Virus record (IMG/VR): IMGVR_UViG_3300042465_007053
Coordinates: 1 to 61,070 of that record
Source of the DNA: a virus
DNA: 61,070 nucleotides
Reading direction: 5' to 3' (one strand)
How positions within the stretch are numbered: position 1 is the first letter of the stretch; every line of letters starts with the position of its first letter. The notes under the pieces are model-generated. The model was not told where the DNA came from and did not search any database. It saw only the letters and a program-made list of their open reading frames with translations. Positions 3,322 through 5,812 of the stretch are shown piece by piece. Position numbers and translations under genes: made by a program.

Positions 3322-3609
3322 TCACCTTTTCGCTTCGTAGAGGAACCCTTTTTCATAAGCCTCGGCAACGTGCGTTTTGTGAATCTTGTCATGGCACTCG
3401 GCGCACACAGGGAGCCAGTGTTCGGAGGCGCACAGCAGACGACCTTCTCGGCCTGCCATGTGGTGAATGTGTCGCGCCTTTCGAGTTCTGAACTGGCACC
3501 ACGCCTCGCAGAACGCATGAATGGCGAGAAACGCAGCCCGCATCCGTAGATACTCAGCGGATTGCTTCGCCCGCTTTTTCGAGATTCGGCGTAAAGGGGA
3601 GCGTTTCAT
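3322..3609 (-). CDS. HNH-type nuclease, 95 aa
   Basis: This is a short beta-beta-alpha metal (HNH) protein. It has a basic N-terminus (MKRSPLRRISKKRAK), a first zinc knuckle C34-x3-C38, the HIHH catalytic/metal region at 47-50, a second knuckle C69-x2-C72 and a closing H77. Length and layout fit small phage HNH proteins linked to recombination or packaging, or acting as free-standing homing endonucleases. Its ATG overlaps the stop of the intein-containing helicase (3606-3609), so the two are translationally coupled. Which role it has cannot be decided from sequence. Confidence 0.75.
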   Translation of the reverse strand: MKRSPLRRISKKRAKQSAEYLRMRAAFLAIHAFCEAWCQFRTRKARHIHHMAGREGRLLCASEHWLPVCAECHDKIHKTHVAEAYEKGFLYEAKR

Positions 3610-5600
3610 GCCTGTTTGTAGCCGAGTTCCGCGTAAATGTCCCGCCTCTTTTGCGCGTGCTTCCGCATCAGCCCGTGAAACGTGTCCTTGAAGTCGTAGA
3701 TGATCGCACCCTTTTTACCCTCGCAGATACGCAAGGCGCGGCCTGTCCTTTGGATGGTTTTCACTTCGCTCCTCCCGCCCGATACCATGATTAGCACTTC
3801 GATGCGCGGCACATCGGCACCCTCATCAAAAAGCGAGGTCGAGACGACACGGTTCAGCTTCCCGCTCCGAAAGTCGTCCATCGTCTGCTTCCGTTTCTTT
3901 TTACCCATAGCCGCATAGCAGGCCACCGCCCCCAGCAACTGATCCGCCATCCATTGCGCGTGCTCCACCTGATTGACGAGCACAAGGGTAGGTTCCGAGT
4001 GCGAGAGCGCAGCCTTGATCGCGGCCTTGTTGCGCTCCTGATTCTTCACGATGCCATGCTCCACAGCACACAGCCACGCGCATTGCCCCCATAACTGCCC
4101 CTCGTCGCCCTTGAAAAACTTACCACGCCAACGCACCATCTTGTCCGTCTCTGCCTCCACGATCTGCCCTGCCATGATGTCCGAGGCGTCGAGCCACACC
4201 ACCGAGGCACTTGAAAGAGTGTGGATGACGGATGCTCTGGAGATCGTGTGGATGTCTCGCCAGAAGTCTTGAAACATCGTGTCGCGTTCGTCGTTCCCTG
4301 TCTCAGGTGTCGCGGTGAATCCCCACACAGCACCGAGGCACGTAGCGATGGACTCGCCCCATTGAGGCGCGGTGGAATGATGACAGTTATGAACTAGGAT
4401 ACCGTTTGCGAAATAGTTGTGCTCACACTCAACTTCGAGATTATAGACAACACCGCCTGAACACACTCCTCCAAATGTTCCATCACTTGTTTGTTCTTGA
4501 ACCGCAACATCGTCCACCCTAGCCCACGCAAAAGCTCCTCCTTCTTCGTATCTTGGGCTTGCCGTGAAAGTAGTCCGTGACTCAGGCCGTCCACTTCGAT
4601 CCCTATTTTCAGAAGAGGGTGAGCAACGTCTATCTTGTAGCAGGTTGGGTATCCGTTGCCCCTTTTGATTCCCGTTGGGACGGCATACGAGATCGCCCAC
4701 CCCAAAGCGTTCGCTAGTCGCATTTCTGGCGCAGTTGGTGGCCGTCCGTTCCCTCCCCTCACGAAAGGGCGATGCCCCATAGCCCGCAGCGTCATAGACA
4801 TTTTCTCCCGCGCCTCTTTCTTCCGCATTGGGTTGTTCCTCTTCATTCGCTCCGAGGCATACTTCAGATTTGTTCGCGCCATTGTTTCTGACGAAACCTT
4901 TCTGCGATACTCCTTTGAACATCGGGTCGAACAATAAACCCCGATTCCCTTCACTACCCTGTCCCGTTGATACTTGGAAAAGAGCGTTACTTCCTTGTGG
5001 CACCATTTGCAGTTTTGAGTGTTCACACGTGGTGAGTCTTAGCACCATTGAGCCGCTTTGCAAGTCTTTTGCCTTCTCGTATTTTTCACCCGTCCAGAAA
5101 GGATGTTCTGGCGTGCAATATATCACGCCTCCACTGAATGTTACGCGCACCAATCTTTGCGTCACCCGTTTGGATGTTCTTGTCACCTTCCTGAGTTGGA
5201 TCGAGTCGGTGTCATGGCAGAACGTCTCAACGTAGTCGCCAACTTGTATGTCCTCAATTTTCGCCCCGCTCACAAGCGTTCCAGCGGGAAAGCATTCATC
5301 CACAACCAGCACGTCTCTGTCGCTCCAATCGGTATTCGCAGCCGCACAGCGGATCTTCACGTCGAGGTTTGCCGTAGCGGGAAACCCGTCGAGTGCGCGG
5401 CGGGCCTGCTCGCATTGCTCGATGGTGTTTGCCATCCACCCCACGCGCACGGGTCGCTCGCGCACCTTGGCCGAGATCACAGCGTCGAGTGCGCCCGCAG
5501 CGATGACGGTCTTGCCCGATCCCGCAGGTGCCACGATGCACGCCCGCCGCTTTCGGGAAATCCACGCGACGGCTTGAGCCTGTTCTGGACGGAGTATCAT
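3606..5600 (-). CDS. SF2 DEAD/DEAH-type helicase interrupted by an intein, 664 aa precursor
   Basis: After removal of the intein the host protein would be 361 residues, a compact SF2 helicase like those in phage recombination modules. Visible motifs are Q-like RPEQAQAV, Walker A APAGSGKT (24-31), the Walker B/DEAD box split as VVDE (99-102) and CHH (406-408), motif III GFTATP, and motif VI QRTGRALR near the end. The intein interrupts the DECHH box, a highly conserved site typical of mobile inteins. The start ATG at 5600 overlaps the upstream stop. The HNH gene follows directly. The role is probably duplex or branch unwinding in replication or recombination. Confidence 0.9.
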   Translation of the reverse strand: MILRPEQAQAVAWISRKRRACIVAPAGSGKTVIAAGALDAVISAKVRERPVRVGWMANTIEQCEQARRALDGFPATANLDVKIRCAAANTDWSDRDVLVVDECFPAGTLVSGAKIEDIQVGDYVETFCHDTDSIQLRKVTRTSKRVTQRLVRVTFSGGVIYCTPEHPFWTGEKYEKAKDLQSGSMVLRLTTCEHSKLQMVPQGSNALFQVSTGQGSEGNRGLLFDPMFKGVSQKGFVRNNGANKSEVCLGANEEEQPNAEERGAGENVYDAAGYGASPFREGRERTATNCARNATSERFGVGDLVCRPNGNQKGQRIPNLLQDRRCSPSSENRDRSGRPESRTTFTASPRYEEGGAFAWARVDDVAVQEQTSDGTFGGVCSGGVVYNLEVECEHNYFANGILVHNCHHSTAPQWGESIATCLGAVWGFTATPETGNDERDTMFQDFWRDIHTISRASVIHTLSSASVVWLDASDIMAGQIVEAETDKMVRWRGKFFKGDEGQLWGQCAWLCAVEHGIVKNQERNKAAIKAALSHSEPTLVLVNQVEHAQWMADQLLGAVACYAAMGKKKRKQTMDDFRSGKLNRVVSTSLFDEGADVPRIEVLIMVSGGRSEVKTIQRTGRALRICEGKKGAIIYDFKDTFHGLMRKHAQKRRDIYAELGYKQA
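4386..5294 (-). mobile_element. Class 1 intein inserted in the helicase DECHH box (303 codons)
   Basis: The element starts with Cys1 of CFPAGTLV (block A) and has the block B T-x-x-H signature CTPEHPF at intein residues 60-66. It ends with block F/G YNLEVECEHNYFANGILVHN, followed by the +1 Cys of the extein. All canonical splicing residues (C1, T61/H64, penultimate His, Asn303, Cys+1) are present, so splicing competence is expected. Residues about 90-285 in this frame look like disordered filler rich in Gly, Arg, Ser, Asn and Glu. That DNA encodes an endonuclease in another frame. No LAGLIDADG domain is present in the intein frame. Confidence 0.92.
4394..5026 (-). CDS. Homing endonuclease nested in the intein in a different frame, 210 aa
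   Basis: This frame lies wholly inside the intein but out of phase with it. Its GTG start falls in intein codon 90, and it stops with TAG at 4396-4394, within the codons for the last splicing block. It has a zinc knuckle pair (C6-x2-C9, C32-x3-C36), a NUMOD3-like helix (RMKRNNPMRKKEAREKM, about 60-77), and a Vsr/DUF559-like PD-(D/E)XK-type nuclease core with E101, D133-x2-H136, E144 and D146 (GIEVDG). This layout matches free-standing phage homing endonucleases of the EDxHD type. No Shine-Dalgarno sequence is obvious. An in-frame TAA at 5041-5039 rules out a longer start. Confidence 0.85.
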   Translation of the reverse strand: MNTQNCKWCHKEVTLFSKYQRDRVVKGIGVYCSTRCSKEYRRKVSSETMARTNLKYASERMKRNNPMRKKEAREKMSMTLRAMGHRPFVRGGNGRPPTAPEMRLANALGWAISYAVPTGIKRGNGYPTCYKIDVAHPLLKIGIEVDGLSHGLLSRQAQDTKKEELLRGLGWTMLRFKNKQVMEHLEECVQAVLSIISKLSVSTTISQTVS

Positions 5601-5812
5601 TTCTTGGATAGTCTCACGACTTGGTTGATGAGTTCCGAGGCTTGTTGGAGAGCCTTTTCGTCGCTTCCCTTATGTAATCCCTGTAAGATGCCGACAAGCG
5701 CAGTAGCAAGCACCATCGGCACCACATCCGCCGCCCCCTCTATGAATAGGTATTTATCAACCGCAGCCAGAATGTCTTTCTCAAGTTTCACGAACAGTTC
5801 GTCCTTCCTCAT
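5597..5812 (-). CDS. Hypothetical helical protein, 71 aa
   Basis: This short acidic/basic protein has a hydrophobic central helix (VVPMVLATALVGILQGL) between charged helices. That could be a buried helix in a dimer rather than a membrane span. The stop overlaps the helicase start and the start overlaps the stop of the next upstream gene, so it is part of a tightly packed operon. No family is recognised. Confidence 0.7.
   Translation of the reverse strand: MRKDELFVKLEKDILAAVDKYLFIEGAADVVPMVLATALVGILQGLHKGSDEKALQQASELINQVVRLSKK

Follow-up and report, generated by a model that had tools for sequence, protein, structure and literature searches.

The locus described here raises the question of how a viral helicase gene can remain open across an intein while the same DNA specifies, in a different reading frame, what appears to be a complete homing endonuclease; in canonical inteins, the endonuclease is fused in-frame to the splicing domain (e.g. 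PI-SceI). The window, meaning the whole 61,070-nucleotide stretch of DNA that was analysed, is an IMG/VR virus contig, and a second contig (L010) is identical to it over 8630 bp, for which reason the pair is uninformative on selection. The host gene and its insertion comprise the following features:

3606-5600, minus strand: SF2 DExH-box helicase gene with intein; ORF encoding a 664-aa precursor; Pfam ResIII 9.5e-10, Helicase_C 1.2e-13
4386-5294, minus strand: class 1 intein of 303 aa; Pfam Intein_splicing 9e-10, NCBIfam intein_Cterm match; invariant C1, H64 and N303
5025-5294, minus strand: N-terminal splicing half, intein residues 1-90; outside the nuclease overlap; pLDDT about 96
4536-5024, minus strand: intein-frame filler, residues 91-253; zero stops; pLDDT about 45-55; intein-frame dN/dS 1.20 [0.89-1.57]
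4386-4535, minus strand: C-terminal splicing half, residues 254-303; both frames constrained; pLDDT about 95; the part preserved as a fossil in mini-inteins

According to the list of open reading frames, the helicase frame contains no stop codon anywhere, intein included, and the intein is inserted between the E and the C of helicase motif II (DE^CHH), its flanking exteins reading ...VVDE and CHHSTAPQW.... The splicing residues present in the window are C1, T61/H64 (TPEHPF), H302, N303 and C+1. In 48 relatives C1, H64 and N303 are invariant and H302 is at least 90% conserved, and the sequence features of a class 1 intein (C1, the block B TxxH, a penultimate H and a terminal N) are found together with either C or S at position +1 across loci. 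An earlier note, made from the letters of this DNA alone, had delimited the 303-codon intein and its class 1 residues, and its coordinates are right.

Structure predictions, for which the alignments were built without the annotated-phage loci, assign a pLDDT of about 95-96 to residues 1-90 and 254-303 of the AlphaFold intein model and of about 45-55 to the central filler (about 48 over residues 91-250), which is disordered. A Foldseek search with this model retrieved the splicing domain of the Mtu RecA mini-intein via both ends (TM by target 0.82), and in the prediction the two intein ends form a Hint splicing fold. The supposition that the insertion is instead removed at the RNA level as an intron, with the open helicase frame being incidental, draws on the frequent presence of homing endonuclease genes in phage introns (PMC3943268); it deserves almost no credence, as no Rfam match was obtained over 3400-5800, even at a relaxed threshold, and as none of the intein frames contains a stop and the intein fold is predicted with confidence.

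The second reading frame of the insertion encodes the following features:

4394-5026, minus strand: nested endonuclease gene, GTG 5026 to TAG 4394; +1 frame of the helicase; 210 aa; model pLDDT 92.1
4919-5011, minus strand: zinc-knuckle region (C6, C9, C32, C36); C6, C9 and C36 invariant, C32 at least 90% conserved
4745-4861, minus strand: basic helical motif 'YASERMKRNNPM...REKMS..LRAMG', then 'RGGNG'; recognised by conservation, NUMOD3-like by resemblance
4439-4639, minus strand: DUF559 / PD-(D/E)XK-type catalytic domain; D133, E144, D146, H150 and D159 conserved

The earlier note had read this frame as a complete zinc-knuckle/NUMOD3 nuclease. Completeness and the zinc knuckle, with its two Cys pairs, stand, and the protein has a Pfam DUF559 match (E 9e-10), but a Pfam search returned no NUMOD3 match. 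The assignment to the PD-(D/E)XK nucleases of the DUF559 type extends to the family: PF04480 is matched by 53/53 members tested, all of which also match Intein_splicing, with D133 and D146 invariant and E144 at least 90% conserved. The AlphaFold nuclease model has a mean pLDDT of 92, and among solved structures Foldseek places it closest to I-Bth0305I (probability 1.00, TM by target 0.54), a multi-domain phage homing endonuclease to which sequence similarity is weak (0.0013); at the sequence level the match is to the DUF559 structure 3hrl (1.4e-11). The aligned I-Bth0305I residues are EVNG and those of the nested nuclease family E-x-DG, and an EDxHD designation for the nested nuclease was considered and not adopted. 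I-Bth0305I/EDxHD enzymes reportedly accompany 'fractured genes' and split inteins (Dassa and colleagues in 2009 and Taylor and colleagues in 2011, as cited in PMC3229294 and PMC3943268). Genes of that kind lie free-standing between gene fragments, whereas the nuclease gene described here is nested in an unbroken intein. The nested nucleases of four loci (L005-L008) possess two tandem N-terminal zinc knuckles (about 250-263 aa open) versus one in the window, and the intein filler is consequently longer by about 50 residues.

A tblastn search with the nested protein retrieved 40 phage records at 44-48% identity, the matches lying under features named helicase, hypothetical protein or similar, and none of these records names the nested nuclease among its listed features. 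At the eight loci that were read (Corynebacterium phi673, Pseudomonas MR14, and Vibrio CP-T1, 1.088.O, K391, 1.194.O, 104E43.1 and 159E43-1b), the helicase is open across an intein of 300-356 aa, inserted at the same position, and the nuclease lies in the +1 frame with its stop 8-44 nt short of the intein end. Scans of viral contigs and of bacterial genome contigs added about 70 further nested loci. In total, a homologous nuclease inside an open intein was found in the +1 frame in 77 loci (about 68 non-redundant) and in the +2 frame in none, the sources being Vibrio, Pseudomonas and Corynebacterium phages, uncultivated viruses and bacterial contigs. The earlier note had named a nuclease frame not conserved in homologues as a finding that would count against it; in all 77 loci that frame is conserved, and always as +1. 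The genes hosting nested inteins encode SF2 (ResIII/DEAD) and SNF2 helicases and, in three bacterial contigs (L079, L081 and L083), DnaX, the element lying there inside the DNA polymerase III gamma/tau gene. Every insertion lies right behind the 'DE' or 'DExH' of Walker B, in flanking DNA that shows strong constraint (GA[CT]GA[AG]|TG[CT]CA).

A second survey employed as probe the intein C-terminus plus the first extein residues, with no nuclease sequence. Among 76 classifiable inteins, 68 carried a nested +1 nuclease, six were mini-inteins and two were of another kind, figures that are biased toward relatives of the nested inteins since the probe was derived from these. An in-frame endonuclease, as in canonical inteins, was found at none of the nested loci, and in-frame DUF559 nucleases within inteins are represented only by the distant L034 (1-1338) and L035 (2977-6610), where this conventional arrangement occurs in another phage gene (MuF-like by eye). 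Two further inteins were noted in passing: that of L139 (359 aa, at the DE^C site) carries an in-frame insert which resembles the DNA-binding motif of the nuclease (SERMKKNNPSFRPEVIEKM) but has no DUF559 match, and the +2 frame of an intein-like region of L190, with an unclear N-terminal border, is open for 328 aa and does not match the nested nuclease.

Because such in-frame DUF559 domains exist, one may ask whether the two frames are an artefact of the kind that the earlier note had singled out for checking, a conventional intein with a fused in-frame endonuclease that indels from sequencing or assembly have broken apart. However, the same +1 layout, with both frames stop-free, occurs in dozens of independent assemblies and in cultured phages; an indel would not keep the intein frame stop-free over the nuclease; and the nuclease continues through the splicing codons without returning to frame. 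Because CP-T1, phage 24, Rostov M3, the Nahant Vibrio phages, phi673 and MR14 were isolated and sequenced independently and share the arrangement, an indel artefact is excluded. Since dozens of other genomes, from phages and from bacteria, show it too, the two-frame arrangement is a real and widespread way of packing two proteins in one mobile element.

A chance origin of the open intein frame was also considered, and for this purpose the synonymous codons of the nuclease were permuted (500 permutations per locus) and stops counted in the intein frame. At the window locus, zero intein-frame stops are present across the nuclease versus 7.4 expected, none of the 500 permutations being open; over the 77 loci zero stops were observed versus a mean of 8.9 expected, and at 64 loci not one of 500 permutations was open. 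The equivalent frame of free-standing homologues that lack an intein (L021, L024, L026 and L065) contains 17-26 stops. Together, the permutations and these stop-rich homologues rule out a chance open frame. The expected number of stops for a +2 overlap is 14.5, which makes +1 the cheaper frame.

The comparison of synonymous and nonsynonymous change that had been proposed as a check was performed on eight independent close pairs, each possible change being classed by its effect in either frame. Between the splicing halves, dN/dS is 0.32 [0.19-0.41] for the nuclease and 1.20 for the intein frame, so that the nuclease is under purifying selection and the filler is neutral except for staying open; the latter is a shadow translation of the nuclease gene, without meaning of its own. 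Within the last 47 intein codons, dN/dS is low in both frames, 0.15 [0.02-0.39] for the nuclease and 0.23 [0.03-0.70] for the intein, and both are thus constrained, the intervals being wide because the estimate rests on 45 differences, with an SN/SS ratio that is undefined at the upper end. The region concerned is the following:

4397-4535, minus strand: dual-coded stretch within the C-terminal splicing half; overlaps nuclease residues 165-210

Its conserved part consists of the strand 'RVDDVAVQEQ', which precedes block F, and of block F itself (VVYNLEVE). The codons of nuclease residues W171 and F176 overlap those of intein V260 and V265 in that strand, and the nuclease helix 'EHLEECVQAVLSIIS' overlies intein 'TSDGTFGGVCSGGVVYNLEVE'. 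The proposal that the nuclease C-terminus is dual-coded with block F/G accordingly stands for block F and the preceding strand, but not for block G, which is crossed only by the non-conserved nuclease tail and is weakly dual-coded.

Given the length of the filler loop, it might be argued that splicing has been lost, its blocks being relics, and that the protein tolerates the insertion as a loop, which is what has been proposed for the ShiLan domain. We regard this as highly improbable, as all splicing residues are conserved across about 50 diverse inteins, the intein frame of the C-terminal segment is under purifying selection, the insertion breaks Walker B/motif II of the helicase, and mini-inteins with the same ends carry no nuclease. 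ShiLan, an out-of-frame HNH endonuclease insertion without an intein, is nevertheless the nearest precedent (PMC11855218), sharing with the present element a homing-type endonuclease in the other frame of an insertion which keeps the host frame open, a GTG start and a patchy distribution. It differs in having no splicing domain or intein motifs, in being thought to be retained in the protein, in its HNH nuclease and in lacking dual coding with splicing blocks (PMC11855218), whereas the window element combines a full class 1 intein with a DUF559/PD-(D/E)XK nuclease; a splicing domain is present in the host frame of all members tested. With canonical inteins the element shares the class 1 splicing domain, insertion at a conserved active site, an endonuclease between the splicing halves and empty alleles in relatives, but its endonuclease is read in a different frame and extends over the C-terminal splicing segment, and what lies in frame between the halves is disordered filler.

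With regard to the expression of the nuclease, 63 loci possess a start codon near the first Cys pair, and at 48% of these the start is preceded by a Shine-Dalgarno sequence of at least 5 nt, as compared with 8% of control start codons taken from the +1 frame at other places in these genes; in the Vibrio phages, GAGGT sits within the intein codons for 'DEV'. At GTG 5026 of the window, unlike at related loci, no clear Shine-Dalgarno sequence was found. Programmed ribosomal frameshifting from the intein frame, which would yield a helicase-N/intein-N/nuclease fusion, could account for the overlap of the frames, for the +1 offset at every locus and for the few loci, the window included, without an obvious ribosome-binding site. 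It is nonetheless improbable, considering the enrichment of Shine-Dalgarno sequences just ahead of the first Cys pair and the fact that in 25 of 68 loci the nuclease frame has a stop within the 12 codons preceding the zinc knuckle, which leaves little space for a shift. Internal translation initiation is the preferred model, since it is for start codons that the Shine-Dalgarno enrichment is seen; separate expression, if true, would allow the nuclease dose to be set apart from that of the host protein.

Occupied and empty alleles of one site exist among close relatives, as is known of homing elements. Vibrio phage CP-T1 is occupied and vB_VchM-138 is empty (DEAHH), with exteins of 96% identity; closest to the site, four differences turn GAA|GCT into GAG|TGC, a change which would provide the Cys nucleophile and would fit co-conversion. 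The CP-T1/138 genome paper never mentions an intein (PMC3391216). Likewise, 1.194.O and K391 are occupied versus an empty 1.251.O (DECHH), and in K459 and K389 the site is taken by mini-inteins of 149-150 aa; from such mini-intein alleles it is evident that a splicing domain need not be accompanied by the nested gene. In Vibrio phage K459 (L109, 4001-7380), the helicase with the mini-intein is immediately followed by a gene bearing the annotation 'endonuclease', which may represent a split homing arrangement.

In mini-inteins L114, L150, L153 and L172, which came out of the second survey, the nuclease C-terminus is still encoded in the +1 frame of the last 50 intein codons (e.g. 'GWTILRFSNQQVMEHLEDCVRAVTFTISK'), the remainder of the gene being gone, and we read these as probable deletion derivatives, i.e. 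fossils of nuclease loss, in which the end of the nuclease gene could not be lost because the intein requires the same codons. The 200-aa intein of L082 (3652-4251), whose nuclease frame is open for only 102 aa (profile positions 133-201), is possibly an intermediate of nuclease loss. The free-standing nuclease homologues (L021, 3988-4675; L065, 3973-4588; L024, 1512-2151; L026, 3796-4429) adjoin upstream, and overlap, intein-less helicase genes (motif II DECHR, DESHH, EEIHN and DEIHS), a layout as expected for what would be a linked free-standing homing endonuclease. This position directly upstream of intein-less helicases suggests a source for the nested gene, namely a helicase-linked nuclease that moved into a mini-intein. 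Mantel correlations among nuclease, intein and extein distances are 0.41-0.58 and do not separate vertical from horizontal spread; as all three distances are correlated, recent horizontal spread is shown for the Vibrio cases only.

The element is, in our assessment, very probably a mobile class 1 intein with its homing endonuclease encoded by a separate +1-frame gene in the same DNA and not by an in-frame domain. In such an element, the helicase frame stays open, so that by its sequence the precursor should be translatable, and the central 160 residues form a disordered loop between the Hint-forming ends, with the nuclease gene terminating within the C-terminal splicing segment, where both frames are conserved. 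The precursor would self-splice to give active helicase and a free intein carrying the loop; the nuclease, made separately through internal translation initiation, would cleave alleles lacking the intein at their Walker B sequence (GAYGAR^TGYCAY-like), whereupon repair of the cut allele would copy the whole element in. It is likely, though a step less so, that this is an ancient and widespread intein class with a +1 endonuclease, in which the C-terminal segment and the nuclease C-terminus have co-evolved and loss of the nuclease requires a deletion that spares its last codons, these subsequently persisting as a fossil in the splicing domain. All members would derive from a single old lineage, a free-standing DUF559 nuclease beside a helicase gene having probably entered a mini-intein out of frame, in this presumed order, and the intein-nuclease composite would have spread thereafter among P-loop NTPase genes.

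While a mobile intein is of a known kind, we found no description of the two-frame architecture in the searchable literature, a search for nested intein endonucleases having yielded only ShiLan and one genome announcement with an out-of-frame HNH gene. The earlier note's statement that no established description is known holds, within the papers searched, for an arrangement with an intein, but an out-of-frame endonuclease without one had already been described in ShiLan (PMC11855218), and the EDxHD homing endonucleases have been reviewed (PMC3943268). A whole intein lineage uses two frames, the loop serving as ballast for the nuclease and one stretch experiencing selection on both. A 2025 preprint by Gosselin, Arsenault and Gogarten on actinobacteriophage inteins (bioRxiv 10.1101/2025.01.02.630785), which was outside the reach of our search, is by its title concerned with non-canonical architecture, has been cited in connection with overlapping frames, and may already describe out-of-frame endonucleases in inteins. 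The origin of gene overlaps in mobile elements, host-independent expression of homing endonucleases and the odd C-terminal sequences of mini-inteins are thereby made testable questions. Detection of homing endonucleases needs six-frame searches, since 40 phage records hide the gene under a helicase annotation, unnamed in their listed features. As a minor observation, a small HNH-like gene (window 3322-3609, minus strand) lies immediately downstream of the intein-bearing helicase, its start overlapping the helicase stop codon (ATGA-type).
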